Assembly: GCA_022843925.1 (NCBI GenBank)
Contig: JALHMS010000014.1
Span: 92,483 to 134,111, forward strand
Source of the DNA: Burkholderiales bacterium
GTDB taxonomy: Bacteria > Pseudomonadota > Gammaproteobacteria > Burkholderiales > Ga0077523
Length of the DNA: 41,629 nt
Direction: 5' to 3'
Shown: piece by piece, positions 656-17,900 of the stretch
How the letters are laid out: every line of letters begins with the position of its first letter
Numbering within the stretch: the first letter of the stretch is position 1
Made by a program: the position numbers and the translations under genes
The notes under the pieces: generated by a model
Told to the model about the DNA's origin: nothing
Databases searched by the model: none
The model's input: the letters and a program-made list of their open reading frames with translations, nothing else

Positions 656-2524
656 ATGACCACTTCGAGCACCGGCAGTGCCGAGGGCCGGCCCCATCTC
701 CAGGTCGCCGATCCGGTACGCCTGCGGGCCGCCGCCGAGGACGATGCCTGGACCCGGTTCTCCGGGGCGGCCTCCGTCGAGGCCTTCTGTCACGGATGGC
801 TCGCCGTCACCTGCATCCGCGCCGAGGCGGCCGACGGCATCCTGGTGCTCGCCAGTCCCGAGGGCAAGGGTTTCGTCCCGGCAGCCGCCTGGCCCGATGG
901 CCGGCGGGATCGCGCCAAGCTCGCCGAGACCATCGAGCAGTGCCTCGCCCAGCGGGCTCTCGTGGTCGCGCCCTTCGGCGAAGGCCGTCAGCACATCGCC
1001 CAGCCGGTCGAGTTCGAGGGGCAGCTCCTCGGCGCCATCGCCGTCGACGTCGTCCTGCGCCAGGATCGCGAACTGCAGACGCTCTCCCGGGAACTCGCCT
1101 GGGGCGCCGGCTGGCTCGAGGCGCTGCTTCGCCGGACGCTCGGCAGCCGGGAGGCCGAGGCCGCCGTCCGGCTCCGCAAAGTCTTCGACCTCTTCAGCGC
1201 CGCGCTCGAACACCACGGCTTCGTCCCGGCGGCGACCGCCACGATCACCGAACTGGCGACGATGCTGGATTGCGATCGGGTCTCGCTCGCGATCATCGAG
1301 GGCCGCCGGCCGCGGGTGAAAGCCCTGTCCCACACAGTCAACTTCGAAAAGAAGTCCGAGCTGACCCGGGCGATCGAGGAGGCCATGGAGGAGGCCGTGG
1401 ACCAGAAGGCCACCATCGCGTGGCCTGCGGTGGCGGAGGGCGATGGCTTCGTCCGCCGCGCCCACGAGCGGCTCGTGCAGACCCAGGGCGCGAAGGGGGT
1501 CCTCACCGTACCGCTGGTACGCCTCGGGGAGACCGTCGGGGCGCTCTGTCTGGAGCGCAATCGTCCCTTCGAGACGGCCGACAACGAGCTGGTCGAGGGG
1601 CTCGCGGCACTGCTCGGGCCGATCACCGAGATCCAGCGGGATGCCGAGCGCGGTCCACTCGCCCGGGCCTGGCAGGTCATGAAGAGCTTCTGGTTCCGGT
1701 TCTTCGGCCCCGGGCACGCGGCCTGGAAGCTGGCGGGTGCGATCGCCGTGCTGGTCGTGCTGTTCTTCTCGTTCGCCACCGGCAACTACCGGATCGCCGC
1801 CAACACGCGTATCGAGGGTGCGGTGCAGCGGTCCATCGCCGCGCCGTTCGAGGGTTACATTCGCGAGGCCGCGGTGCGTCCGGGCGACATCGTGAAGAGC
1901 GGCGACCTCATCGCGCGCCTCGACGATCGCGATCTCCAGCTGGAACGCCTGAAGGCCGCGAGCCGCCGCGAACAGCTCGTGAAGCAGCATCGCGAGGCCC
2001 TCGCCAACCACGACCGCACCCAGATCCGCGTGATCGGCTCCCAGATCGACCAGGCCGAGGCCGAACTCGCCATCGCCAGCGAGAAGCTCTCCCGCACGGA
2101 GCTCCGCGCGCCGTTCGACGGCGTGATCGTGAGCGGCGATCTCTCCCAGCAGCTCGGCGCGCCGGTCCAGCGCGGCCAGGTGCTGTTCGAGGTCGCGCCG
2201 CTCGAGGACTATCGCGTCGTGCTGAAGGCCGACGAACGCGACATCCGCGATCTCGAGGTGGGTCAGGCCGGCGAACTGGTGCTGACGTCGATGCCCTCCA
2301 CCAGGCTGCCGGTGAAGGTGGCGCGGATCACGCCCGTTTCCACACCCGAGGATGGCCGCAACTACTTCCGCGTCGAGGCGAAGCTCCAGCAGGGCGCGGA
2401 GCGGATGCGTCCGGGGATGGAAGGCGTCGCCAAGGTGACCGTCGGTGACCGCAAGCTGATCTGGATCTGGACGCGCTACCTGATGGACTGGGCGCGTCTC
2501 GAACTCTGGTGGCTCCTGCCTTGA
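656..2524 (+). CDS. Membrane-anchored HlyD-family periplasmic adaptor with cytoplasmic GAF-like domains
   Basis: A 622-residue adaptor (membrane fusion) protein. Residues about 1-170 look like a degenerate GAF fold and 176-330 like a clearer GAF domain. Both precede a single hydrophobic segment (about 359-377), so they should be cytoplasmic. The periplasmic half begins with a biotinyl-lipoyl-like strand set (about 388-425, with PFEGYIREA and GDIVKSGDLIARL). A helical hairpin follows (about 430-480), then the second lipoyl half (APFDGVIVSGD) and a beta-barrel part. The C-terminus is rich in aromatic residues. AGGGAG about 8 bases ahead supports the ATG start. It is first in a row with the M50/PqqD fusion (37-bp gap) and the SecA-like gene. 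HlyD-type adaptors bridge inner-membrane transporters to outer-membrane channels. No RND, ABC or TolC-like partner lies in the window. The GAF fusion suggests signal-dependent control, which is inference. Confidence 0.88.
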   Translation: MTTSSTGSAEGRPHLQVADPVRLRAAAEDDAWTRFSGAASVEAFCHGWLAVTCIRAEAADGILVLASPEGKGFVPAAAWPDGRRDRAKLAETIEQCLAQRALVVAPFGEGRQHIAQPVEFEGQLLGAIAVDVVLRQDRELQTLSRELAWGAGWLEALLRRTLGSREAEAAVRLRKVFDLFSAALEHHGFVPAATATITELATMLDCDRVSLAIIEGRRPRVKALSHTVNFEKKSELTRAIEEAMEEAVDQKATIAWPAVAEGDGFVRRAHERLVQTQGAKGVLTVPLVRLGETVGALCLERNRPFETADNELVEGLAALLGPITEIQRDAERGPLARAWQVMKSFWFRFFGPGHAAWKLAGAIAVLVVLFFSFATGNYRIAANTRIEGAVQRSIAAPFEGYIREAAVRPGDIVKSGDLIARLDDRDLQLERLKAASRREQLVKQHREALANHDRTQIRVIGSQIDQAEAELAIASEKLSRTELRAPFDGVIVSGDLSQQLGAPVQRGQVLFEVAPLEDYRVVLKADERDIRDLEVGQAGELVLTSMPSTRLPVKVARITPVSTPEDGRNYFRVEAKLQQGAERMRPGMEGVAKVTVGDRKLIWIWTRYLMDWARLELWWLLP

Positions 2525-2561
2525 CGACCGCAGCCAGGTCGCCAGCTGCCGGGGCCCGCCC

Positions 2562-4709
2562 GTGAGCGGTGATCTCCACAGCCCTTCGTGGTACCGGGTC
2601 GCGGGCCTGCGACCCCGGCTGAAGAGCCATGCGGAGGTGCATCGGCACCACTACCGCGGACAGCTCTGGTACGTCCTCCAGGATCGCGCCTCCCGGCGCA
2701 TGTACCGCTTCAACCCGTCCGCCTGGCAGGTGATCGGCCTGATGGACGGCTCCCGCACGGTGCAGGAGGCCTGGGACCTCGCGTGCCATCGGCTCGGCGA
2801 CGACGCGCCGACGCAGGACGAAACCATCCGCCTGCTCGGCCAGTTGCACGGCGCCGACCTGCTGCAGAGCGAGGTCGCGCCGGACGCCGACGAACTGCTC
2901 CGGCGCTACGCCAAGCAGGAGAAGGGGAAGTTCTGGCGCAACCTGCGCAACCCCATGTCGGTGAAGCTCCCGCTCATCGATCCCGATCCGGTGCTGCGCC
3001 GGAACGTCCCGGCCTATGCGTGGATCTTCCGGCCCGCCGGTTTCCTGGCGTGGCTGGCCCTCGTCGTCGCCGGCCTCGTGGTGGTGGGGTCGCACTGGCT
3101 CGAGCTGACCGAGAACATGGCCGACCGCATCCTCGCGCCGGGCAACCTCGTCGGGATGCTGCTCATCTTCCCGCTCGTGAAGATCGTCCACGAGTTCGGC
3201 CACGCCTGTGCCGTCCGGGCCCACGGGGGCGAGGTCCACGAGATGGGCGTGATGTTCCTCGTGTTCCTGCCGGTGCCGTACGTCGATGCGTCGGCGTCGT
3301 CGGCGTTCCCGAGCAAGTGGCTGCGGTTCGTCGTCGGCGGCGCCGGCATGATGGCGGAGCTGGCGCTGGCGGCGCTCGCGGCCTTCCTCTGGGTGAGCGT
3401 CGAGCCCGGCATCGTCCGGGCGGCCTGCTTCAACGTGATGCTGATCGCGGGCGTGTCGACGGTGCTGTTCAACGGCAACCCGCTGCTCCGCTACGACGGC
3501 TACTACATGCTGGCGGACCTCATCGAGATCCCCAATCTCGGCGCGCGGGCGAATCGCTATCTCGGCTATCTCGTGCAGCGCTACGCCTTCGGCGCCCGCG
3601 AGATGACGGCGCCGGAGGCGCTGCCCGGCGAGAAGCGGTGGTTCGTCTTCTACTCGATCGCGTCGTACCTCTACCGCCAGTTCGTCACGTTCGCCATCAT
3701 CCTGTTCGTCGCGACGCAGTACTTCGTGTTCGGCGTGCTGCTCGCCATCTGGGCCGGCATCTCGTCGATCCTGGTGCCCATCGGCAAGGGTCTCGCGCAG
3801 GTCATCAACGGCCGCAATCTGCGTCGGCATCGCCAGCGGGCGTGGTGGGTGACGGGCGGGGCCGTCGCGGCCCTGCTGGCCGGACTCTTCCTCATCCCCT
3901 TCCCGATGTGGACGCGCACGGAGGGCGTGCTCTGGGTGCCCGAACAGTCGGTGGTGCGCGCGCAGACCGACGGCTTCGTCGCCGGTCTCGAGACGAAGCC
4001 CGGTGCCTCCGTGGCATTCGGGGTCCCGTTGATGCGTCTCGAGGATCCGCTCCTCGTACCCCAGGAGCGCCTGCTGGCGGCGCGTCTCGACGAGCTGGAT
4101 GCGCGGCTGCGCGCCATGCAGGTCGAGGATCGCGTGCAGACCCAGATCGTCCGCGAGGAGATCGAGTACACCCGCAAGGAACTCGTGCGCGTGCAGGAGC
4201 GCATCGCCGGCCTCACGGTGAAGAGCCCCGCTGCCGGCCGCTTCGTCATCGCGAATCCGGACGACATGCCCCAGCGTTTCGTGCACAAGGGCGAGCAGCT
4301 CGGCTACATCACCCCGCGCGAGGACCGGCTCGTGCGCGTCGTCGTCGATCAGGATTCCGTCGATCTCGTCCGGCAGCGCACCGAGGGCATCGAAGTGCGT
4401 CTGGCGGAACGGGTGAAGGACCGCCTCCCGGCGAAGATCCTGCGGGAGGTTCCCGCGGCGTCCGGCGAACTGCCGAGCCTCGCGCTCTCCGAACGCGGCG
4501 GCGGGACGATCGCGCTCGATCCGCGCCAGACCGAGCGCCCGGTCGCGCTGAACCCGGTGTTCCACTTCGAGCTGCGACTGCCCGCGGCCGACGGCGAGAT
4601 GCACCTCGGCGAACGCGTCCACGTGCGCTTCGACCACGGCGCCGAACCGGTCGCCTTCCAGGTGTGGCGCGCAGGCCGGCGGTTGTTCCTGCGGAGGTTC
4701 AGTGTCTGA
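2562..4709 (+). CDS. PqqD-like / M50 site-2-type zinc metallopeptidase / HlyD-like fusion membrane protein
   Basis: 715 residues. Residues about 10-103 resemble a PqqD-like peptide-binding domain, the fold that recognises leader peptides in RiPP systems. A polytopic membrane core follows from about 149 to 460. It carries the M50 zinc motif HEFGH at 210-214 and the second motif NPLLRYDGYY from 306, whose D312 is the expected third zinc ligand. All expected catalytic residues (H210, E211, H214, D312) are present. After the last membrane helix, residues about 465-715 look like a HlyD-type lipoyl/barrel adaptor with a helical hairpin (about 500-555). The start is GTG at 2562, as no ATG lies near the beginning of the conserved region. 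The gene sits 37 bp after the GAF-adaptor and 59 bp before the SecA-like gene, probably as one operon. A role in recognising and processing an exported protein, perhaps the giant protein, is inference. The HlyD-like tail suggests it may also be structural in an export complex. Confidence 0.87.
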   Translation: MSGDLHSPSWYRVAGLRPRLKSHAEVHRHHYRGQLWYVLQDRASRRMYRFNPSAWQVIGLMDGSRTVQEAWDLACHRLGDDAPTQDETIRLLGQLHGADLLQSEVAPDADELLRRYAKQEKGKFWRNLRNPMSVKLPLIDPDPVLRRNVPAYAWIFRPAGFLAWLALVVAGLVVVGSHWLELTENMADRILAPGNLVGMLLIFPLVKIVHEFGHACAVRAHGGEVHEMGVMFLVFLPVPYVDASASSAFPSKWLRFVVGGAGMMAELALAALAAFLWVSVEPGIVRAACFNVMLIAGVSTVLFNGNPLLRYDGYYMLADLIEIPNLGARANRYLGYLVQRYAFGAREMTAPEALPGEKRWFVFYSIASYLYRQFVTFAIILFVATQYFVFGVLLAIWAGISSILVPIGKGLAQVINGRNLRRHRQRAWWVTGGAVAALLAGLFLIPFPMWTRTEGVLWVPEQSVVRAQTDGFVAGLETKPGASVAFGVPLMRLEDPLLVPQERLLAARLDELDARLRAMQVEDRVQTQIVREEIEYTRKELVRVQERIAGLTVKSPAAGRFVIANPDDMPQRFVHKGEQLGYITPREDRLVRVVVDQDSVDLVRQRTEGIEVRLAERVKDRLPAKILREVPAASGELPSLALSERGGGTIALDPRQTERPVALNPVFHFELRLPAADGEMHLGERVHVRFDHGAEPVAFQVWRAGRRLFLRRFSV

Positions 4710-4768
4710 TGTCGGTGGGCGGCGCACCCCGGTCGGCAGCCGCCGGATCCACCGCTAGCGGCTGAGCG

Positions 4769-6727
4769 ATGTCCACCGACATCCTCGGCTACGGCTTCTA
4801 CCCCGAACGGGTCGAGAAGCGCGAGAACTGGCTCGAGCGCACCATGCGCGCGCCCGTGCGGTGGGTCGGGCGCGACATCGATCAGGGCAGCCGACGGTTC
4901 GCCACGCTGATCGCCGCCGTGAATGCCGCCGCGCCGAGCATCGATGGTCTCGACCTCGCCGGGCTCCGTGCGTACGCCGACGATCTCCGCCCGCGACTGA
5001 AGCGCGAGGGCTACACCGATGCGCTGGTCGGCGAGGCCTTTGCCCTCGTACGGGCCACGGCCCAGGCCGTGGTCGGCATGCGGCACTACGACGTCCAGCT
5101 CGCAGGTGGCTACGTGCTGCTGACGGGCCGGGTGGCCGAGATGGAGACCGGGGAGGGAAAGACGCTCACCGCCACGCTCGCGGCCGCCACCGCCGCGCTC
5201 GCCGGCACGCCGGTGCACGTGGTGACGGTGAACGACTATCTCGCCGAGCGCGACGCGGAGGAGATGGGCAAGGTCTACAAGGCCCTCGGCCTCACCGTCG
5301 GATGCGTCACCCAGAAGATCCCGCCCAACGAGCGCGCCCCGCACTACGCCTGCGACATCACCTACTGCACCAACAAGGATGTCACGTTCGACTATCTCCG
5401 CGATCGGATGCAGTTGAAGGGCCGCCCGCGCGCGCTGCGCTACGCGGTGGGGAAGGTCGGAGGCACCGGCGGCGACACCGGCCTCACTTTGCGCGGGCTG
5501 CACTTCGCGATCCTCGACGAGATCGACAGCGTCCTGGTGGACGAGGCGCGCACGCCGCTCATCCTGTCGGCGGAGACCGACGACGCAGGCCTCGAACGCA
5601 TCTATCGCGAAGGGCTCTCGCTTGCCGGGCAGCTGGTCGAGGGAAAGGACTTCGTGATCGAACACCAGCGCACGTCGATCCGCTTCCTGAAGGAAGGCAA
5701 GGACCGCCTCGCGCAGCTCGCTGCCGGACTGCGCGGCGTCTGGACGGGACCGAACCGCCGCGAGGAGCTCGTGCGCCAGGCGCTCACGGCGCTGCATCTC
5801 TTCAAGCGCGACCAGCAGTACCTCGTCACCGACGACAAGGTGCAGATCGTCGACGAGTTCACCGGGCGCGTGATGCCCGACCGCTCGTGGGAGCGCGGCC
5901 TGCACCAGATGATCGAGGTGAAGGAGGGCTGCCCGATCACCGGCCAGCGCGAGACGCTCGCGCGGATCTCGTACCAGCGGTTCTTCCGCCGCTATCTGCG
6001 CCTCGCCGGCATGACCGGCACGGCGAAGGAGATCGCCGGTGAACTCTGGTCGGTGTACGGACTGAAGGTGATGCGGGTGCCCACCCGCAAGCCGGTGATC
6101 CGGCAGATCGCGCCGCTTCGCATCCTCGCGACCGAGGACGAGAAGTGGCAGGCCGTGGTGGAAGCGATCCGGCGCGAGCACGCGCGCGGCCGGCCGATCC
6201 TCGTGGGTACGCGTTCCGTGGTCGCGTCCGAGAAGCTGTCGGCGCTCCTCGTCGACGCCGGTCTCGAGCACAGCCTGCTGAACGCGCGCCAGGACAAGGA
6301 GGAGGCCGAGATCGTGGCGCAGGCGGGCCAGCCTGGCCGCATCACCGTCGCCACCAACATGGCCGGCCGCGGCACCGACATCAAGCTGCCGCCGGCGTCC
6401 CTCGCGGCCGGTGGCCTGCACGTGATCGCCACCGAACTGCACGAGTCCGGCCGGGTGGACCGCCAGCTCTTCGGCCGCTGCGCCCGGCAGGGCGATCCGG
6501 GCAGCTGCGACGTCTTCGCGAGCTACGAGGACGACCTCATCGTCCGCTACGCGCGCCTCGCGAGCGGTGTGGCCGGCAAGGCGCCTGCGAAGGATCTCAC
6601 CGGCCCGGCGCTCTTCCGCTTCGCGCAGAACCGTGCGGAGCGCATCCACGGAATGATGCGCAAGGAAGTGCTGGAGATGGACGACTACCTGGGCGACATG
6701 CTCGCGTTCGCGGGGCGGGCCGAGTAG
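4769..6727 (+). CDS. Shortened SecA-like preprotein translocase ATPase (accessory paralogue)
   Basis: 652 residues with unmistakable SecA motifs: Walker A METGEGKT at 125-132, the Walker B/DEAD-type motif DEID at 250-253 followed by SVLVDEARTPL, TGRVMPDRSWERGLHQ in the preprotein cross-linking region, GMTGTA, TNMAGRGTDI at 529-538, and GRCARQGD. Housekeeping SecA proteins are about 850-900 residues. This one stops soon after the second nucleotide-binding domain, inside what would be the first helical-scaffold helix (LEMDDYL near the end). It therefore lacks most of the helical scaffold with the two-helix finger, the helical wing domain and the C-terminal zinc-binding tail. All ATPase motifs look intact, so it is likely an active motor rather than a decaying copy. 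Its place behind two adaptor-type genes and near a giant exported protein argues for a specialised export role. This is probably not the cell's essential SecA. Confidence 0.93.
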   Translation: MSTDILGYGFYPERVEKRENWLERTMRAPVRWVGRDIDQGSRRFATLIAAVNAAAPSIDGLDLAGLRAYADDLRPRLKREGYTDALVGEAFALVRATAQAVVGMRHYDVQLAGGYVLLTGRVAEMETGEGKTLTATLAAATAALAGTPVHVVTVNDYLAERDAEEMGKVYKALGLTVGCVTQKIPPNERAPHYACDITYCTNKDVTFDYLRDRMQLKGRPRALRYAVGKVGGTGGDTGLTLRGLHFAILDEIDSVLVDEARTPLILSAETDDAGLERIYREGLSLAGQLVEGKDFVIEHQRTSIRFLKEGKDRLAQLAAGLRGVWTGPNRREELVRQALTALHLFKRDQQYLVTDDKVQIVDEFTGRVMPDRSWERGLHQMIEVKEGCPITGQRETLARISYQRFFRRYLRLAGMTGTAKEIAGELWSVYGLKVMRVPTRKPVIRQIAPLRILATEDEKWQAVVEAIRREHARGRPILVGTRSVVASEKLSALLVDAGLEHSLLNARQDKEEAEIVAQAGQPGRITVATNMAGRGTDIKLPPASLAAGGLHVIATELHESGRVDRQLFGRCARQGDPGSCDVFASYEDDLIVRYARLASGVAGKAPAKDLTGPALFRFAQNRAERIHGMMRKEVLEMDDYLGDMLAFAGRAE

Positions 6728-6776
6728 GCGTCCACGGACGCGTCGCCTGGTACGCCGCCCGCCGGCGACATGCCTG

Positions 6777-7217
6777 CTACGGCGTCGCCGTGCACTCCAC
6801 CGCGGCGCCGCTGCTCAAGACGCCACGCGCGATCTTCTCGGCCTGCACGTAGAGCGTCGCGGCCTTGCCGGGGTTGGCCGGGAGCGCGGCCTCGGCGCGG
6901 GCGGCCAGGGCGTTGGCGGAATCGAGGACCTCCCGATAGCGGTCGACCCGCCGTGCGGCGAGCGAGTGACACTCACCACCGGCGGCGCGCGCGATGACGG
7001 TCTGGCCGTCGCGCACCGTGGACTCGAAGGCGCGCCGCCGCATCTCCACCGCGCGCAGCTGCAAGGTCGGCGCGGCCCCGGTGCGGGCCGGCGCGGCCAT
7101 CGCATCCGCCGCACCGCCGTCCGAAGGCGCGTCCGCACCCCATGCTTCGGCGATGCAGACCAATGCGGCGGCAGTCAGCGCGCCCAGCGACTTCTTCTGT
7201 GACATCGATCGATTCAC
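6777..7217 (-). CDS. Small secreted protein of unknown function
   Basis: About 146 residues if translation starts at the GTG at 7217, which has GGGAGA five bases upstream. An ATG four codons further in (7205) is the alternative. The N-terminus has a typical Sec signal peptide: lysines, then a hydrophobic run (LGALTAAALVCIAEAWG), with likely cleavage before ADAPSD. The mature part is alanine- and arginine-rich and mostly helical, with two cysteines (in GGECHS and near the end in VECTATP). I do not recognise a family. It converges on the SecA-like gene (49 bp between stop codons) and is divergent from the RuBisCO-like gene across 227 bp. Nothing ties it clearly to either neighbour. Coding rather than chance is supported mainly by the signal peptide and the gene-sized frame. 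Confidence 0.6.
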   Translation of the reverse strand: MNRSMSQKKSLGALTAAALVCIAEAWGADAPSDGGAADAMAAPARTGAAPTLQLRAVEMRRRAFESTVRDGQTVIARAAGGECHSLAARRVDRYREVLDSANALAARAEAALPANPGKAATLYVQAEKIARGVLSSGAAVECTATP

Positions 7218-7444
7218 TGCGTCTCCCAGGGGGTCGGTTGCCTCCGCCCGATTCTCCCACGGGACCTTCGGTCCTGGTGGCAAGGATGACGGGCCGCGGC
7301 GGCGACGTTCCGCGTCCCGGCCCGTCGATGGTCGATCGGTATCATGGCGAAGCACCGATGGAAAGACGCGCCTCGAATCAGCGTGCCGCCACCCTGCGTA
7401 TCCCCAGAGACGAATCCGTCGCAACCCCCGAACACCGGAACGCC

Positions 7445-8689
7445 ATGACCGAACGCATCCATGCGAGCTACTGGCTCGAAACCCCGATCGAGCCGCAGCG
7501 TGCGGCCGACATCATCGCCGGCGAGCAGTCGAGCGGCACCTTCCTCGCGCTCGCGAACGAGACGCCCGAACTCAAGGAGCGCTCGGGTGCCCGCGTCGAG
7601 CGCCTCGAGATCCTCGACACCGTCGACGTGCCGAGCCTGCCCGGCCGCTACAAGACCGGCGCGCGATTCACGCGATGCCTGCTCGACGTCTCGTGGCCGA
7701 TCGCGAACCTCGGACCTTCGCTGCCCAACCTCATGGCGACCATCGCCGGCAACCTGTTCGAGCTGCAGTGCGTCTCCGGGCTGCGCATCCTCGATCTGCG
7801 CCTGCCGCCGTCCTTTGCGGCGGCATACCCGGGACCGGCGTTCGGCATCGCGGGCACGCGGCGGATGGCGGGTGTGCCGACCGGCCCGCTCATCGGGACG
7901 ATCGTGAAGCCGAGCGTCGGGATGAATCCCGCCGAGACTGCGGCCGAAGTGCGGAAGCTCGTGGCGGGCGGCATCGACTTCGTGAAGGACGACGAACTGC
8001 AGGCGGACGGCCCGCACTGTCCTTTCGACGAACGCGTGCGCGCGGTCATGCGCGAGGTGCGCGCCGGCGCCGACCGACTCGGGCGCAAGGTGATGGTGGC
8101 CTTCAACCTGACCGGTGAGCTGGACGACATGAAGCGGCGCCATGATCTCGTCCTGGCCGAGGGCGGCACGTGCGTGATGGTCAGCCTCAATTCCGTCGGA
8201 CTCGTGGGGCTGCGCGAGTTGCGGCGCCACTCGGTGCTGCCCATCCACGCGCACCGCAACGGCTGGGGGTATCTCAACCGCAGCCCGGCGCTCGGCTGGG
8301 AGTACGCGCCATGGCAGAAGATCTGGCGTCTGGCCGGCGCCGACCACATGCACGTGAACGGCATCGCGAACAAGTTCAGCGAACCCGACGAGACCGTCAT
8401 CGCCGCCGCGCGTGCGGTGCTGAGCCCGCTCTGGCCGGACGCACCGATGACCGCCATGCCCGTCTTCAGTTCGGGCCAGACCGGGCTCGTCGCGGCCGAC
8501 ACCTACCAGGCCGTCGGCAGCACCGACCTCATCTTCGCCGCGGGGGGCGGCATCTTCGGTCATCCCGACGGCGTCGCCGCCGGCGTGAAGGCGCTGCGCG
8601 AGGCGTGGGATGCCGCGGTGGCCGGCGTGCCCATCGAAGAGGCTGCGCGCCACCGCCCCGCGTTGAAGGCCGCGCTGGGGTTCTGGTGA
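7445..8689 (+). CDS. RuBisCO-like protein (form IV), probable sugar-acid phosphate decarboxylase/hydrolase
   Basis: 414 residues from the ATG at 7445. The frame is open further upstream, but homologues of this class start near the sequence ERIHASYWLETP, so the longer forms are unlikely. The large-subunit TIM-barrel motifs are present. K155 in IVKPS matches RuBisCO K175, while the usual second lysine of KPK is serine. K181, D183 and E184 in DFVKDDE match the carbamylated lysine and Mg ligands K201/D203/E204. H270-R271, H303 and the loop-6 lysine K310 match H294-R295, H327 and K334. Its coupling to a DUF1537 kinase is the arrangement reported for 3-oxo-isoapionate (apiose-related) catabolism, where such proteins (OiaX/OiaC) act on the phosphorylated acid. 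That assignment is inferred from context and is not unique. It is unlikely to be a true CO2-fixing RuBisCO. Confidence 0.88.
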   Translation: MTERIHASYWLETPIEPQRAADIIAGEQSSGTFLALANETPELKERSGARVERLEILDTVDVPSLPGRYKTGARFTRCLLDVSWPIANLGPSLPNLMATIAGNLFELQCVSGLRILDLRLPPSFAAAYPGPAFGIAGTRRMAGVPTGPLIGTIVKPSVGMNPAETAAEVRKLVAGGIDFVKDDELQADGPHCPFDERVRAVMREVRAGADRLGRKVMVAFNLTGELDDMKRRHDLVLAEGGTCVMVSLNSVGLVGLRELRRHSVLPIHAHRNGWGYLNRSPALGWEYAPWQKIWRLAGADHMHVNGIANKFSEPDETVIAAARAVLSPLWPDAPMTAMPVFSSGQTGLVAADTYQAVGSTDLIFAAGGGIFGHPDGVAAGVKALREAWDAAVAGVPIEEAARHRPALKAALGFW

Positions 8690-10071
8690 TGATGATGGCC
8701 GATCGCGACGACGCGCTTCCGGCGGGACCGCTGCTCGCCTATTGCGGCGACGACTTCACCGGGTCCACCGACGTCATGGAGGCGTTCACGGCCGCGGGGG
8801 TGCCGACCGTGTTGTTCCTCGCGCCGCCCGGGCCCGAATGGGTCGAGCGGTTCGCGGGGACGCGCTGCATCGGCCTCGCGACGACAGCCCGTGGGCAGTC
8901 GCCCGAATGGATGGATGCCGCCCTGCCCGATGCCTACGCACGGCTGAAGGCCTTCGGCGCGCCGATCCTCCAGTACAAGGTCTGCTCCACGTTCGACTCG
9001 TCCCCGCAGGTCGGCGCCATCGGCCGTGCGATCGACCACGGCGTCGCTGCCATGGGCGGGCGCTGGTCGCCGATGGTGGTCGGGGCGCCGAGACTGCGGC
9101 GCTGGCAGGCCTTCGGGAATCTCTTCGCGGCGGCCGCCGACGGCGTCGCGCATCGTCTCGATCGCCATCCCACCATGAGCCGGCATCCGGTCACGCCCAT
9201 GCACGAGGCCGATCTCCGGCGGCATCTCGCGGAGCAGACGCCGCGTCGCACGGGTCTCGTGGACCTCGTCGCGATGAAGGCGGGCGACGGCAGCGCGCGG
9301 CGCGATGCGCTCTGTGCCGATGACGCGCCGATCGTCCTTCTCGACGTCGTCGACGAGGAGACCCTCGCGGAGGCCGGCCGACTCGTCTGGGAAGGGCGCG
9401 GCGAGGGTATCTTCTCGGCGTCGTCCTCGGGATTGCAGTACGCGCTCGCGGCCCACTGGCGCAGCCGCGGCTGGGTGCCTGCGCAACCGTCGCTGCCGTG
9501 CCCCTCCGCGGTCGAGGCCATCGCCGTGGTGAGCGGCAGCTGCTCGCCCGTCACCGCATCGCAGATTGCCTGGGCGGCCGGCAAAGGCTTCCACGCCGAG
9601 CGTCTCGATCTGACCCGCGTGCTGCCCGTCACGACCCGCGAGGCCGAGATCGAGCGGACGGTCACCGCCGCCCTGGCGGGGCTCGGTCTCGGACGGAGCC
9701 CGCTCGTCTACTCGGCAGCCGGTCCCGAGGATCCCGCGGTGACGGGCTTCGACGCCGTCGCGCGCGTGGCAGGGCTCACCCGTGGCGACGCCGCACGCGC
9801 CGTCGGTGACGCGCTTGCCGAAGTCATGCGGCGTCTCCTCGACCGTTCCGGCCTGCGACGCATCGTCGTCGCGGGCGGCGACAGTTCCGGTGCGGTGGCG
9901 GGTGCGCTCGACATCGCGGCCCTGAGCGTCACCGCCGGTATCGCCCCCGGGGCGCCGCTCTGCCGCGCCTGGTCCAAGGTGCCTTCGCGGGATGGCCTCG
10001 AGGTCGTGTTGAAGGGCGGACAGATGGGGGCGGAGGACTTCTTCGCGCGGGTCCGGTCCGGCGGAGCGTGA
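8689..10071 (+). CDS. Four-carbon acid sugar kinase family (DUF1537) kinase
   Basis: 460 residues from the ATG at 8689, which overlaps the preceding stop by one base (TGATG). Two further in-frame ATGs follow at once (8692, 8695), so the exact start may shift by one or two codons. The N-terminal GDDFTGSTD at 20-28 is the hallmark of the substrate-binding domain of DUF1537 kinases. The C-terminal GGDSSG at 396-401 is the glycine-rich nucleotide-binding signature (usually GG[ED][TS]SG). Length is normal for the family. These enzymes phosphorylate four- or five-carbon sugar acids with ATP. Coupling to the RuBisCO-like gene suggests the kinase makes that enzyme's phosphorylated substrate, as OiaK does for 3-oxo-isoapionate. 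It ends 18 bp before a convergent minus-strand gene. Confidence 0.9.
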   Translation: MMMADRDDALPAGPLLAYCGDDFTGSTDVMEAFTAAGVPTVLFLAPPGPEWVERFAGTRCIGLATTARGQSPEWMDAALPDAYARLKAFGAPILQYKVCSTFDSSPQVGAIGRAIDHGVAAMGGRWSPMVVGAPRLRRWQAFGNLFAAAADGVAHRLDRHPTMSRHPVTPMHEADLRRHLAEQTPRRTGLVDLVAMKAGDGSARRDALCADDAPIVLLDVVDEETLAEAGRLVWEGRGEGIFSASSSGLQYALAAHWRSRGWVPAQPSLPCPSAVEAIAVVSGSCSPVTASQIAWAAGKGFHAERLDLTRVLPVTTREAEIERTVTAALAGLGLGRSPLVYSAAGPEDPAVTGFDAVARVAGLTRGDAARAVGDALAEVMRRLLDRSGLRRIVVAGGDSSGAVAGALDIAALSVTAGIAPGAPLCRAWSKVPSRDGLEVVLKGGQMGAEDFFARVRSGGA

Positions 10072-10089
10072 GGCCGTGCCCGCCGGCTG

Positions 10090-10629
10090 CTACATCTCGT
10101 GCATCGGGACCGGTGCGGGGCGCAGGCGCGGGCGGTCGGCCTCGGGAGGCCGTGGCGCGGCCGGATCGGGGGCGTCCGCCGGTGGCAGCGGCGGGGCGTC
10201 GCCCCGGGCCGCCCGGACCAGCAGGTTCACCTTGCTCGGCGCCTCGCCCCGGGAGTTGTCGAGCATGAGCACATAGTCGCCGGCCGCAGGGATCACCACC
10301 GAGAACGAGAGCACGCTCTCGACCGGGGCCGTGAACAGCGGCTCCCCGGGCGTCGGATACTTTGCCGCGTCGGCGGCGTTCAGCAGTGACAACGCGATGC
10401 GACCCGAGGCCTTCGCCGCGATGGCGAGGCGGGCACCCCGCGGGACATTGCGTAGACGCAGGCCGCGAAACTGACCTGACGGGACCTCCGTGGCGAGGCT
10501 GGCCTGTCGGGGCTGCGCTTGCGCCTGCGCCCAGGTCTCCCGGGGAGCGACGCTGACCAGGAGGATCGCGAAGGCGATCCCGGTGCCGAGCAGGGTGGCG
10601 GCGATCAGCCGCCGAACGTGATCTTGCAC
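10090..10629 (-). CDS. Small exported protein with a PPC-like beta domain
   Basis: About 179 residues starting at a GTG (10629) that overlaps the end of the adaptor gene by 25 bp; a GGGG-containing stretch lies just upstream. The N-terminus is a signal peptide or anchor (LIAATLLGTGIAFAILLVSVA). The middle (about residues 45-135) looks like a small beta-sandwich resembling the bacterial pre-peptidase C-terminal (PPC) domain, ending in a YVLMLDNSRG-type strand. The last 40 or so residues are proline-, alanine- and arginine-rich, like a linker or wall-spanning tail. It is probably translated with the HlyD-type adaptor in one operon. The family call is tentative, since the domain resemblance is by pattern only. 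A periplasmic accessory role in export is inference. Confidence 0.65.
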   Translation of the reverse strand: MQDHVRRLIAATLLGTGIAFAILLVSVAPRETWAQAQAQPRQASLATEVPSGQFRGLRLRNVPRGARLAIAAKASGRIALSLLNAADAAKYPTPGEPLFTAPVESVLSFSVVIPAAGDYVLMLDNSRGEAPSKVNLLVRAARGDAPPLPPADAPDPAAPRPPEADRPRLRPAPVPMHEM

Positions 10630-11465
10630 TTCGCCCCGGCGGGGATCCGCAACCCGGGGTTGGGCAGCTCGAGTCGGATGCCGAATGTGCCACTCGCGGC
10701 GTCGATCATGGAATCGACCGTGGTGACCGTGGCGACGAACTTGCCGCTGGGGGCCTCGGGCCGGACCGTGGCCTTGGCGCCCCGGCGGATCTTGCCGTAG
10801 TACGACGCCGGCAGCACCACCTCCACGTGCAGCGGATTCACCTCCGCGATCTTCATCACGGGGTCCTTCACGTTCGACGTGGCGAACTCGCCCGGAGAAA
10901 GGTAGCGCTCGACCACCACGCCGTCGAACGGACTGCGGATGCTCCGAAGCTTCAGCAGTTCCTCGGCGCGGCGCAGTTCGAGTTCGTTCAGCTTGCGGTT
11001 CTCCCGGGCCTCCCGGAGTTCCGATTCCGCCAGCTCGCGCTGCGTCCGCGCCTCGTCCAGGGCGCCGGCGGCGATGAAGTTCTGCTTGAACAGCTCGATG
11101 GACCGCTGCTCCTTCTTGGCGGCGAAGTCCAGCCGGGATTCCGCCGCCTTCAGCGCGCCCTCCATCGTGGCCCGCGATCGGGCCAGTTCGACGGCTGCCC
11201 GTTCCGACCCGGACTCGAGCATGACGAGCACCTGCCCCTTCCGGACCTGGTCGCCGCGACGCACCAGCACCTGCTCGATGATGCCTTCGACCGAACTGCG
11301 GATCTCGACGGTATCGCGCGCCTCGATGAGGCAATCGTGCTCCTCGGCACCGGCGGCCGGAACCGCCAGCAGCGAGGCGGCGATCATCAGGACGCTCGAT
11401 CGCGCGAACCTCGACCGCACGGAGACCGGTGCCCGCACCGGCAAGCCACTTCGAAGACTTTTCAT
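10605..11465 (-). CDS. HlyD/RND-type periplasmic adaptor subunit, soluble form
   Basis: 286 residues from an ATG at 11465. The frame stays open upstream, but those codons are not protein-like. Residues 1-43 form a long signal sequence: a basic region, then VLMIAASLLAVPAAGA. The mature protein starts with a lipoyl half (VEIRSSVEGIIEQVLVRRGD), followed by an alpha-helical hairpin with strong coiled-coil character (about 88-165). The second lipoyl half (SIRSPFDGVVVERYLSPGE) and a short beta-barrel end at the C-terminus. It lacks the membrane-proximal domain of long RND adaptors, so it is a short adaptor. The gene is transcribed away from the giant gene, followed by an overlapping secreted-protein gene. 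With the HlyD parts of the first two genes, this is the third adaptor module in the window. It probably serves the same export system, which is inference. Confidence 0.88.
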   Translation of the reverse strand: MKSLRSGLPVRAPVSVRSRFARSSVLMIAASLLAVPAAGAEEHDCLIEARDTVEIRSSVEGIIEQVLVRRGDQVRKGQVLVMLESGSERAAVELARSRATMEGALKAAESRLDFAAKKEQRSIELFKQNFIAAGALDEARTQRELAESELREARENRKLNELELRRAEELLKLRSIRSPFDGVVVERYLSPGEFATSNVKDPVMKIAEVNPLHVEVVLPASYYGKIRRGAKATVRPEAPSGKFVATVTTVDSMIDAASGTFGIRLELPNPGLRIPAGAKCKITFGG

Positions 11466-11932: not shown

Positions 11933-14900
11933 ATGCTCGGTCGAAATGTCCTCCACCGCCTGTTTGGCGGCCGCAGAGCCACGGCAGTCGTTCCAGGCCG
12001 CATCCCCTTCCGTCGCAAGGCGCTCTTCGAGGCGCTGGAGCCGCGATTGCTGCTGTCGGCCGATCTGCCAGGCGCACCGCTGCCGCAGATCCTCGCCGCG
12101 ACGGCGCAGTCGACGGGATCGGTGCAGCTCCAGGTGAATCCCGGGCCGCAGTCGGTGAGCAGCGCCATCGACACCCCGGCGGCATTCGCGGGGCTGCCGG
12201 AGAACGTCTGGACGATCAGCGGTCCGGTCACCGGAGACCTCGTCGGCGGCACCGACGATCGCGACACCTTCGTGCTCGGACCGGGCGCCTCGGTCAGCGG
12301 CATCATCGATGGCGGCGCGGGCGGCTTCGACAGCGTCGTGATTGGTACCCAGCAGGTGAACGTCGTCATCCACGAGGCCACCGCCCCGGACGCCGGCACC
12401 ATCACGGTCGATGGCCGCACCTTCCGATACCGCGGGATGGAGCCCGTGGTCGACGCCACCGTGGCCGTCGAGAAGCTGTTCAATTCGGCGACGGGCGGGG
12501 ACGACATCGTCCGCATCTTCGATGCGCCGGCGCAATCGATCCTCATCGACAGCGTGAATGCGACCTTCGAGGACCACACGATCCGCGAGGCGACCCAGAC
12601 CTTCACGATCAATCTCGGCGCCGGTGCCGACACCCTCCGGTTCGACGCGCTGTTCTACAACAACGCCTTCGTGTTCGATGGCGGCGAGGGCAACGACATC
12701 TTCGATCTCGGCACGCGGGCCGTCGGCATGTCCGCGATCCGCTACTCCGACGGCACCTACGTCCTGACCGACGGCATCGGCACCCCCGTCCGCCTGCGCA
12801 ACTTCGAGACCGTCACGGGGGCGGACTTCAACCTCCAGGCCGACGGCCTGCCCGACTGGGTGGAGCAGGGCCCCGGCGGCATCGACAACGCGACGGGTCT
12901 CCCGCGCTTCCGCGGCCAGCCCTGGTCCGGCGCGGTCCAGGCGATCGCGACCCACCCGGACAACGCGAACATCATCTTCGCGGGGTCGGTCAACGGCGGC
13001 GTATGGCGGACCATCGACGGCGGGGCGACCTGGACGAGCCTGACCGACCAGTTCCCGTCGCTCGCCGTGGGCGCCCTGGCCGTCAGCACCCACGACAACA
13101 GCGGGAACCTCGTCACGAACGCCACGCCCCTGGCGAATCTCGTGGTCTATGCCGGCACCGGTCAGTTCAGCAATTTCTACGCGGGTGGCCAGTCGGTCGG
13201 CCTGATGCGTTCGACCAACGGCGGCGACACCTGGGAACTCGTCGGCTCGCCCGAGATGGCCGGCCTGCCGATCTCATCGCTGGTGGCCACGCGCGTGGGC
13301 ACCGAGGACATCGTGCTGGTGGGCGCCATCGCCAACACCGTGACGACCCGCGACGACACCGGCGCGATCCAGCAGCAGGTGCTCCGGGGCGGCGGCGTGT
13401 TCCGCAGCGTGGATGGCGGCGACACGTTCACCAAGAACGAGATCGTCGCGCCGCCGGCGACGGCAGGGAGGGGGGAGTTCCAGGTGGGTTCGGTTTCCGA
13501 CCTTGCCCGGGATCCCGGCAACCTCTCGCGCGTGTACGCCGCCGTGATCGGTGGCGGCATCTACCAGTCGACCGATGCCGGTGCCAACTGGACACCCATC
13601 AATGCCGGCTTCGGGCTGGATGCCGACGGCGCCGACAACGACGGCGTCGGCGGTGTCGACAACGCCACCGAGGCGCTCACCGGGGCGGCCCGCATCGTCC
13701 TCGCCGTGCAGCAGGATCGGACTTCCGCCACCAACGCCGTGTACGCGGCTCTGATCGGCGTGACCGACTGGCTGACCGGCGTGTACCGGAAGGCACCGGC
13801 CGACGCCGCGTGGGCGCTGGTCGGGACGAATCCTCCGCCCCGCACCAACGCGGACCGCGACTTCGGCGAGATGCAGGGCGCGCCCAATGTCACGTTCAAT
13901 GCGGGTGCCAACCCGACCATCGTGCGGGATGCCGGCAGTTTCCTCGACGACGGCTTCCTGCCGGGCGGGACGATCGCGGTCCGCATCGCCGGGGCGAACG
14001 GGTGGAACTACCGGATCGCTCCTGGCGCCGGATCGGTCACAGCCACGACTCTCACCCTGGAGGCGGGCTCGGGCATCACGGCCGCGGCCGCGGCCGGCGG
14101 TGTACGCATCTTCCACGTGAACGAAGCCGACATCGTCATCGTCGGCAATCCGACCCTCACGCTGGCTGCCGGACCGGCGGCCGGCACCATCACGGTCACG
14201 CGCAACAACGGTACCTGGGGCGCCGACGGGTTCATGGTGGGTGGCATCGCCACCATCGCGGGCACCAACAGCAACAACGGCAACTTCGTCGTCACCGCGG
14301 TCGCGGGTGGCGTCATCACGCTGCAACGTGCGAACGGATCGACGGCGGCCTTCGTGGCCGAGCCGGCGCCGTCCGCCAACATTCAGGTCACGGGCAGCGC
14401 ACGGATCGCATCGACGCCCTCGGGTATCCAGCCCCAGATCCACTTCGGGCGTCAGGGCATCCGCAACACCGCACTCAACGTCGACGCCGCCGGCAACGTG
14501 TTCCTCGGCGGGGACACGGCCAGCCGGGGCACCAACCTGTACTGGTGGGACAACAGCGCCGGCGGTCAGGTCTGGCGGAATTTCGTGCCCGTCGGCACCC
14601 ACCCCGACGCACGCACCATCGAGTTCGATGCGACCGGCCGCCTGCTGCAGGGCGACGACGGCGGGATCTATCGCTTCCCGAACCCCGCCACGACGCCGCC
14701 CGTGGTGTCGAGCGGCACGTTCACGTTCGTGAACGGAGCCACCGACACCATCACCCGCACCGTGGGCAGTTTCGTCACCGACGGATTCCAGGTGGGCCAG
14801 ACGCTGGTCGTCACCGCCAACGCCGGTGTGGGCAACCTGCAGGCCTTCGACCAGTACACGATCCGCGGCGTAGCGGCGCAGACCCTCACGCTCGATCCGG

Positions 14901-17900
14901 CGGACGTGCTGAACCCCAACCTGCTGGCGGGCACCGGGACCTTCCTCGCGACCCTGTCCGCGAGCCGTTGGGAGGTGCTCAACAACGACCTCCGTGCGAT
15001 CGAGATGCTCGCGATCGCGTACGACCCGCTGAACAACGCCGTCTTCGGCGGCACCCAGGACAACGGGATCGCCGAGCAGCCGTCACCGGCCAACGGCATC
15101 GACGACGACGGCGATGGCGTGATCGACGAGGCCGACGAGCGGTTCGCGTGGCGGGAGATCCGCGTGGCGACCCGACCGGGGGACGGCAACACCGCCGCCG
15201 TCGTGCCCGTGAACACCGACGCCGATCCCGCCTTCGAGCAGGTGCGTCGCTACACCATGTCGAACAGCTGGTCACTGCTGGGCGTGCGCACCTTCGATGC
15301 GAATGGTCAGCTCGTGCCAGGCACGGACCGTCTGGTCAACCTGAGCCGTACGGTGGCGCACAGCCGCGTCGTCACGGCCGACGCCGCCACCGACACGCTG
15401 ACCAGTGCCGCGCATGGCTTCGTGAATGGGCAGCAGGTGTGGATGCGTAGCACCGGAACCCTGCCGGGCGGCCTGTTCCCCTTCGGCCGCCCGTTCGTCG
15501 CAAACGCCACGGCCGACACGTTCCAGCTCTCTTTCCAGAATGGTGGCGCGGTCATCGACATCACCAGTGCGGGTGCGGGGGAGATTCGCGCCACCGACCG
15601 GTTCTCCGGCCTCTCCGCCGACGATCGGAGAGAGGTCGACCAGTTCCAGAAGTGGCCCTACGTGGTCAACGCCGTGAACTCCAGCCGCATGATGGCCGGC
15701 CTCGGCGGGCTCTATCAGAGTCGCAACATCGGTACGGCCGCGGTGCCGGTGTACGACGGTCTCGATACCATCGCCGCCGTGCCGCTGCCGAACGCGCTCA
15801 CCGGCAACGATGCCTACTTCACCGCCATCGCCTACGGGGGCACCAAGGCCGGCGTCGCGAACGAGGATGTCGTCTACGCGGTGCGCGGCAACGAGGTGCT
15901 GATCCGCTTCGCGGACACCGGTGTCGCCGGCGACTTCACCACCGAGCGCATCTCGGCGGCGACGTTCATCCAGGACATCGTCCTCGATCCCGACAACCAC
16001 GACGTCGCCTTCGCCGCCACGGACGCCGGCGTGTTCCGGCGCTCGGCGCCGAACACCTGGGTTTGGGTGTCGGCGAGGATGTTCAACCCCGATCTCCGCA
16101 GCATCGAGGCGGTCCGTACGGGAGGCCAGCTGGTCGTCCTGGCAGGCGGCGCCGCCGGTGTGTACCGCGCAGTGGATCCCGTGGCCGGCAGCACCTGGAC
16201 CGAGTTCGGCAACGGGCTTCCCAACGCGCTCGTGTTCGACCTCGACTTCACCGCCCGCGACGCGGCCCAGTTCGAAAATCCCCGCAACCTCTCGCGCGAC
16301 GACGTTCTGGTGGCGGGTACGCTCGGGCGCGGTGCCTGGACGGTCGGCGTGGCCGACACCTTCCTCGCTGCCACGCCCCAGTTGCGCATCGACGGGACGA
16401 GCGGCGATGACCAGTTCCTGATCCGTCGCAATGCGACCAACGCGTCCCTCGTCGACATCCGCACCGGGCTCCTCGAAACGCTGGTCATGCAGGTCCCCAT
16501 CGACGCGTTGCAGAAGATCGAGATCTTCGGCGGCGACGGCAACGACACGCTGACGATCGACAGCACCGACGGCCCCATCAGCCTGCGCGAGGGCATCTTC
16601 TTCGACGGCGGTGCCGGCGCGGACGATCGCGTCATCCTCGAAGGTGTCGCCGCCGGTCTGACCACCACGACCACCGTCGGTGCACGCACCACCATCGCGG
16701 TGATCGACACGCGCTTCGGGAAGACCCAGCGCGTTTCTTACGAGAACGTCGACGCGGCGGACGTCCAGAACAACATCGTGGCCGCCACCGAGCAGGAGAG
16801 GTTCGGCGTCGGCATGAACCTGCTGTTCAACGTGCTGGAGGCGTCGTCCAACGGGACCTGGGACGAGATCGCCCTGCTGGGGAACTCGCTGCCGCGGGCC
16901 CTCACGGGCCGCAGCACTGCCGGGGCGAATCCGGAGTCCGACGAGCCGCTCGTCCCCGGCACGCCCGAGGCGGCCGACGCCACCGCCGCGGCCCTGGCGG
17001 GCTTCAAGCGCCTGATCGAGGAGGGGCCGAACGGCTTCAGCCTCGCGAGCATCTCCGAGCTGTCCGCCACGCAGTTGCGCGACAGGTTGGAGGCGCTGGA
17101 CACCGTCGCCGGCAACGTCACCCTGACGCAGGTCGCCGGGGACACGCGCTTCGACGCCACCATCGTGCGGCGGCTGGAGGGGCAGGCCGACCTCGACATC
17201 CTCACGGAGCAGCTGGGCGGCGTGGTCGACCTCGGTGGCGCCCTGCGCGTCGGCGCGGAAGTCACCCTTCGCCTCGTCTTCGGCGTGGACGGCGACGGCT
17301 TCTACATCGACACCGCGGGCGGCGCCTCCCGCCTCACCGTGCGCGACATCGACCTGGAGGGCGATCTCTTCGCCGGCGGGCGCCTGGGCTTCCTCGACGT
17401 GACGCTCGCGGAGGCGAGCCTCGCCGTCGATCCGTCGCTGCGCCTCGACCTCGTTCTGCGCGATGCCGGTCCGGGCGGCAAGCTGCGGCTCGACGAACTG
17501 GAGGACGCCACCGGCAGCCCGACTGCCCTCGCCGATGCGCTCGACTTCACCGTCTCGGGTTCCGCGGCCGACGACTTCGCCCTGACCGTCGATGCGCGGG
17601 TTGCGGCGATCCTTCCCGGCGACGCGGCTCCGTTCGATCTCGGTGCCGCCAACATCACCTTCACCTGGGCCGACGTCACCGACCCGACGACCGTCGCGCT
17701 GTCGGCGAGTGCCGGCGTCGCGCAGGACCTCCTCAACTTCCTGCGCGTCGATGCGCAGCAGGTGCTCGACCAGGTCCGCGGGCTCGCCGACATCTCGGTC
17801 AGCTTCAACGGACAGACCGTGCCGCTGCTCCAGGACAGCCTCGATGCCATCGTCCAGGTGGCGGACTTCCTGCAGCAGAACATCATCGATCCGCTCTCCA

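Follow-up and report, generated by a model that had tools for sequence, protein, structure and literature searches.

A possible dedicated export machine for giant LEPR-XLL proteins, with a short SecA, an M50 membrane protein and HlyD adaptors

How might a bacterium send a protein of at least 9899 residues over two membranes when its N-terminus bears no evident Sec signal? The question is raised by the window analysed here, the final 41.6 kb of a contig (G000:C14:92483-134111) in a 5.57 Mb Burkholderiales genome, where genes for a short SecA ATPase, a PqqD-like/M50/HlyD membrane protein and further HlyD adaptors lie near a giant repeat protein with an N-terminal LEPR-XLL motif. An earlier note had proposed that these genes form a dedicated export machine. 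Our analysis supports that these families and LEPR-XLL giants are found together much more often than chance would allow, in different phyla and mostly with the genes in the same order, and we consider it rather probable that the set is a dedicated exporter of the giants, which would resemble a tripartite conduit of type I but run on another motor. The proposal holds with respect to co-occurrence, but not in its statement that all usual transporter pieces are lacking, and the gene set had already been described from genomes in 2015.

A conserved gene set beside LEPR-XLL giants

Three genes of the set lie on the forward strand. The first (656..2524) encodes a GAF domain, a single membrane helix placed by hydropathy at about residues 355-373, and a periplasmic HlyD adaptor (Pfam GAF and HlyD_3/HlyD_D23). 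The second (2562..4709) joins, in a single frame recognised by Pfam, a PqqD-like domain of the RiPP (ribosomally synthesized and post-translationally modified peptide) recognition element type (RRE), an M50 site-2-protease-like membrane domain and an HlyD adaptor, and the third (4769..6727) encodes the short SecA ATPase, identified by Pfam SecA_DEAD, SecA_PP_bind and P-loop_SecA as well as by alignment to the canonical SecA of the same genome. On the reverse strand, a stand-alone HlyD/RND-type periplasmic adaptor (10605..11465, start at 11465; TIGR01730 145 bits, cut-off 94.9) brings the adaptor modules to three, as the earlier note had counted, and is divergent from the presumed cargo, an open frame on the forward strand (11933..41629) that is cut by the contig end. 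The LEPR-XLL profile NF012209 matches this giant with 28.4 bits (cut-off 17) at G000:C14:104505-104567, i.e. at 12023..12085 of the window on the forward strand, where the motif EALEPRLLLSAD forms the presumed leader. Furthermore, the giant carries 38 GGxGxD motifs, and its first 100 residues contain no signal-peptide-like stretch as judged by a hydropathy scan alone (best 19-residue mean 1.09), in agreement with the earlier description of a giant without a normal Sec signal. As an observation, the gene set with its short SecA, PqqD/M50/HlyD fusion and nearby giant is confirmed by Pfam and NCBIfam.

Searching genome contigs with three M50 proteins yielded 580 relatives, the best 80 of which define the related loci considered here, and the families cluster around them. 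A GAF-HlyD gene lies 5' of the M50 gene wherever the sequence allowed a judgement (73 of 73 loci), a short SecA gene 3' of it in 70 of 74 (counting a degenerate copy in L069), and a second HlyD gene is found in 57 of 67, the four operon genes being close together in most loci. The order GAF-HlyD, M50, short SecA, HlyD was seen in Pseudomonadota, Thermodesulfobacteriota, Myxococcota, Nitrospirota and Rokubacteria. With the LEPR-XLL profile (E <= 0.05), matches were obtained in 43 of the 48 genomes harbouring 49 such loci, which had been picked for long contigs, versus one of 14 control genomes (Deinobacterium chartae). An adjoining LEPR-XLL giant, accepted either on a reading frame with a check of contig coordinates or on a motif read in the locus, was present in 34 of the 49 loci (28 in phase, six by direct motif reading). 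This count excludes L035 and L113, where no motif was read, and L104, where it was out of phase; it includes L099, whose frame is shorter than 900 residues. The adjoining giants of L066 and L105 have a weaker motif. An adjoining giant is present, for example, in L048 of Marinobacterium mangrovicola. Most of the adjoining giants (26 of 34) are situated 5' of the operon on the same strand, and the gap does not exceed about 1.6 kb, apart from L075 and L099 with about 4.7 kb.

Could machine and giant merely be unrelated neighbours? In the window they are separated by metabolic genes, as would be expected of a chance neighbourhood. However, a crude estimate would predict an adjoining giant in about 3% of loci, whereas 34 of 49 have one, and a test across 276 genomes of the same class (LEPR-XLL at E <= 0.01, M50 family at E <= 1e-20) points the same way. 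Here, 28 genomes had LEPR-XLL, 41 had the M50 family and 24 had both, so that the M50 family occurred in 24 of 28 LEPR-XLL genomes but in only 17 of 248 others (Fisher p about 1e-19, a value that overstates the case since the genomes are related and non-independent). The genomes with LEPR-XLL but no M50 match are G114 (a bin of about 780 contigs), G151 and G258 (with frames of 99 and 168 residues) and G237. In addition, among the matches listed, two or more SecA_DEAD matches occurred in at least 17 of the 22 genomes with a strong M50 match (over 500 bits), versus at least five of 254 others, and in one of these five (G102) a SecA lies beside a weaker M50 gene (L209). Chance or hitchhiking was rejected on the adjoining counts and the class test, and we regard it as extremely improbable. 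As for the comparison of phylogenies that the earlier note had suggested, pairwise distances correlate with r = 0.75-0.89 over the 54 loci with all four genes (none of 500 permutations was as high), although shared descent alone would be enough for such a correlation.

The short SecA and the M50 protein in the light of known systems

The SecA of the window has 652 residues, displays the Walker A motif TGEGKT and, according to Pfam, retains the DEAD motor, the preprotein cross-linking domain and the P-loop domain. The last residue aligned before the deletion corresponds to residue 661 of 906 in the genome's own canonical SecA, and the absent parts are what we take to be the helical wing, the two-helix finger and the C-terminal tail. 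Following the motif RQGDPG, short SecA proteins extend for 66 to 84 residues (median 79; 47 of 76 rows with readable motif and complete end), compared with 295-313 in three canonical proteins. A canonical-length SecA frame accompanies the short one in 10 of 11 genomes searched, the eleventh, a 2.5 Mb bin, having the short one alone. Moreover, 38 short rows (every second row plus those of the window, of a second cassette on contig C18 and of L156) and 11 canonical rows fell apart in a tree with a support of 100 in the Shimodaira-Hasegawa-like approximate likelihood ratio test (SH-aLRT), SecA2 rows and the sequences of PMC4452313 being left out. As a separate observation, the SecA homologue in the operon position of L069 (12614-14866) is possibly a pseudo-ATPase, as neither the Walker A nor the Walker B pattern was found in it.

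An extra SecA paralogue besides the housekeeping SecA is shared with accessory Sec systems (SecA2, SecA2/SecY2), unlike which the present set lacks wing and finger and has HlyD and M50 partners. Membership in SecA2/SecY2 was ruled out, as the window SecA remains under every curated SecA2 cut-off (545/1085, 472/930, 434/725 and 391/1100 bits) and the genome holds a single SecY, although a second SecY is not required of SecA2-only systems. Even so, the short SecA might deliver the giant to the ordinary SecYEG, with the M50, HlyD and TolC parts trimming it and carrying it over the outer membrane. The single SecY and the retained cross-linking domain are compatible with such a delivery, as are the existence of SecA-less cassettes and the channel activity of the E. 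coli SecA fragments N649-N668 with SecYEG (PMC5456053), whose lengths the truncation point of the short SecA appears to come near, judging by the numbering of two different proteins. The same fragments, despite high ATPase activity and pore rings, translocate nothing (PMC5456053); this, the lack of a signal-peptide-like core in the first 100 residues of the giant in the hydropathy scan and the unreached SecA2 cut-offs argue against Sec delivery, which we consider unlikely though worth serious attention.

The gene set itself is not unknown, as it was described from genomes by Kamneva, Poudel and Ward in 2015 (PMC4452313). Their locus shares with ours a secondary SecA_DEAD protein devoid of the scaffold/wing domain, or of most of it, beside a canonical SecA, as well as M50, HlyD and GAF-HlyD neighbours, the absence of an ABC (ATP-binding cassette) gene and the occasional presence of an outer membrane efflux protein. 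An operon given there is META1p2402-2399 of Methylobacterium extorquens AM1. Their short SecA clade, kin to actinobacterial SecA2, stands apart from canonical SecA, as does the one in our tree. These authors proposed SecA as the motor and the M50 protein as the pore, and called the role of the gene set completely unknown; a term search found neither LEPR nor PqqD nor adhesin in the main text, where the cargo is unnamed. With regard to that main text, what is new here comprises the LEPR-XLL giants as the likely cargo, the hypothesis of a leader handled by an RRE-protease, the PqqD domain, the DUF3467 and SapC satellites, and a SecA-less sister cassette. The earlier note knew of no experimental description, and indeed none was found in the open-licence literature; the genome-based account, however, dates from 2015.

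In the M50 protein, Pfam PqqD scores 26.7 bits (cut-off 23.4) and HlyD_3 25.6 (cut-off 22.2), while Peptidase_M50, at 26.2 bits, remains 1 bit below its cut-off of 27.2. The HExxH motif occupies residues 210-214 and, variants counted, is kept in all 83 M50 frames, of which 80 come from the loci and three from the present genome. The nearest curated family is that of the daptide proteases, whose profile NF041824 aligns with positions 1-378 of 379 to residues 18-426 of the M50 protein at 159 bits, the equivalog cut-off of 300 being unreached. Like the daptide leader protease MpaP, the protein combines an N-terminal RRE/PqqD-like domain with an M50 membrane protease bearing HExxH, but differs in its extra HlyD domain and in a cargo of thousands of residues. 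RRE domains fused to a site-2 protease co-occur with precursors carrying an N-terminal ELExMEAP, and the protease is reported to remove the leader (PMC10036551). Giants of the LEPR-XLL type, in turn, carry E-x-L-E-P-R-x-L-L-S-A-D near the N-terminus, often preceded by a basic stretch, and the analogy to daptide leader removal is suggestive only.

A conserved protease site might also serve maturation or regulated release, the giant leaving by another route while the operon cuts, anchors or frees it by means of the protease and periplasmic clamps, with GAF as a sensor. The retention of the M50 site in every frame and of GAF-HlyD in every judgeable locus would suit such a function, and the HlyB profile finds nine ABC proteins at other places in the genome, albeit none above cut-off. 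For release, however, a SecA motor would be superfluous, and yet 70 of 74 loci have one; nor would a TolC-type channel be needed next to the operon. We judge this reading improbable.

Channels, satellite genes and sister cassettes

TolC-type channel genes (PF02321) were strong in 12 of the 80 loci, including L107 and L111 at a distance of some kilobases, and weak in L059 and L066; a TolC-family gene also belongs to a SecA-less cassette of this genome (contig C2). No ABC exporter was detected in the 80 loci, where a search with one ABC exporter from this genome hit just three isolated ATPase frames (238-282 residues), nor among the window genes scanned with Pfam and NCBIfam. The earlier statement that TolC is missing is not supported as worded. 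The TolC-type channels in related loci and in the SecA-less cassette make the set resemble a tripartite exporter with its ABC motor replaced, rather than a scheme devoid of the usual pieces. Type I systems (HlyB/HlyD/TolC) share the HlyD adaptors, a TolC-family channel in some loci and a huge cargo, in some cases with repeats like those of RTX (repeats-in-toxin) proteins, whereas here SecA and M50 genes replace the ABC exporter and the motif common to the cargo is N-terminal. Membership in type I was rejected, as the search of the loci met no ABC exporter and the genome has no HlyB match above cut-off.

Profiles made from recurrent neighbours were run on the 80 loci, with one member of each checked in Pfam. 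DUF3467 was found in 19 loci, mostly between giant and GAF-HlyD, and SapC likewise in 19, either in that position, in the M50-SecA interval or following HlyD. Among the 49 loci that have 5.5 kb of sequence on either side, DUF3467 occurred in 14, SapC in 17, TolC in four and none of the three in 17, DUF3467 and SapC meeting in L058 only; all three families are absent from the window by profile scan. This near mutual exclusion led us to guess that both DUF3467 and SapC might be chaperones. A SecB-like identity of DUF3467 was unsupported: its model (predicted local distance difference test, pLDDT, 79; predicted template modelling score 0.57) matched no PDB entry at E <= 0.001, and SecB was absent among the best 50 of 633 structure matches. 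Nor did the SapC model (pLDDT 73) match a PDB entry at this threshold.

Altogether, the genome contains eight LEPR-XLL matches and three M50-family proteins. A second full set on C18 consists of GAF-HlyD, PqqD/M50/HlyD, short SecA and a divergent HlyD, and there the stop codon of the short SecA overlaps the ATG of a 4065-residue giant with the motif variant ELAPRILFSAD. The SecA-less sister cassette on C2 (L027 1047-7082 and L026 from 15678 onward) follows a giant with ALEPRMLFDGA and starts with a TolC-family gene, after which come an HlyD gene, another HlyD gene whose product is extended at the N-terminus (Pfam recognises HlyD in it, but not GAF), and M50-HlyD. Such sets recur in other genomes of the class, e.g. 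L206 and L212, with LEPRMMFDGA or LEPRLMFDAA nearby. A tie between the motif ending FD[GA]A, found in these three SecA-less sets, and the loss of SecA was ruled out, because the SecA-less L091, L096, L101 and L199 carry the SA ending; at best, the motif form follows the cassette subtype, not SecA.

Concerning the giants themselves, a Vibrio protein of about 8000 residues is on record whose N-terminus bears LEPR-XLL and whose C-terminal domains are of the RTX and serralysin types (PMC10868602). Near the C-terminus of the upstream giants of L041, L044, L068, L069, L082 and L113, we noticed HExxHxxG-type metallopeptidase-like segments that perhaps act in self-processing. The N-terminal part of the window giant (11933-17932) gave sub-cut-off matches to Sortilin-Vps10 (22.6, cut-off 33) and to an F510_1955-type glycosylhydrolase (45.8, cut-off 175).

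Between machine and giant, the window contains two metabolic genes of isoapionate catabolism (7445-10071): one for a RuBisCO-like protein, which approaches OiaX with 435 bits against a cut-off of 700, and one for an OiaK kinase (772 bits, cut-off 700). The pair belongs to ordinary sugar metabolism and was perhaps inserted into the locus. Behind the divergent HlyD gene, and also on the reverse strand, lies a gene for a protein of about 178 residues with an N-terminal hydrophobic stretch (10090..10629). The earlier note had taken both for adaptors; the first is one, but its partner matches no family in Pfam or NCBIfam. Among the 80 loci, phmmer matched this small protein solely in the near-identical L034, a betaproteobacterial metagenome bin whose M50 protein is 98% identical to that of the window, and it perhaps stands outside the machine. 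Finally, a tandem repeat of 130 bases in 2.7 copies (1-352) lies 5' of the operon.

A proposed route for the giants

HlyD modules, an occasional TolC gene and no ABC exporter are most simply explained by a tripartite conduit that SecA would drive and for which the M50 protein would serve as gate or pore. In this model, the PqqD-like domain of the membrane protein would bind the N-terminal LEPR-XLL leader of the giant, and the M50 site would trim it. By hydrolysing ATP, the short SecA would feed the unfolded giant into an inner-membrane passage, presumably the M50 protein itself, possibly together with SecYEG. From there, the three HlyD modules might form a periplasmic duct that ends in a TolC-family channel, the gene for which may lie inside or outside the locus; GAF would gate the conduit. 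A more specific proposal is that this is a leader-addressed route of its own: LEPR-XLL would be read and cut by a site-2 protease fused to an RRE, and a stripped SecA, working with this protease, would thread proteins of about 4000-14000 residues via the three HlyD modules and TolC. We put it forward tentatively, as somewhat short of an even chance.

Several observations weigh against this export model. At the level of the cargo, 15 of the 49 loci are without a verified adjoining LEPR-XLL giant, and G237 has a solid giant frame of 7373 residues and no M50 match. For six of this genome's eight LEPR-XLL giants (C2:85241, C2:127985, C4:289699, C4:338840, C9:100093 and C14:46809; frames of 4945-14056 residues), the flanks read contain no cassette, so that a machine acting in trans would be needed. 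As for the motor, the sister cassette is entirely without SecA, four of 74 loci (L042, L091, L096 and L101) lack it although GAF-HlyD, M50 and HlyD are present, and the SecA of L069 is without Walker A; furthermore, the 0% translocation by E. coli fragments of similar length (PMC5456053) counts here as well. With respect to leader and channel, Pfam detected PqqD in just five of 12 M50 relatives and not in the M50 protein of the sister cassette, and no TolC gene was found in the stretches scanned for the window and C18 cassettes.

For LEPR-XLL giants, the open-licence literature searched here gives no account of how single polypeptides thousands of residues long cross two membranes when no Sec signal is evident. 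The link drawn here gives the machine described in 2015 a likely substrate, and the LEPR-XLL giants a likely machine, in several Gram-negative phyla. In addition, the SecA-less sister cassette and the natural truncation of SecA provide built-in comparisons for the role of the SecA finger and wing. A leader-addressed route, if real, would unite two principles, the recognition of a leader as in RiPPs and the secretion of giant proteins.

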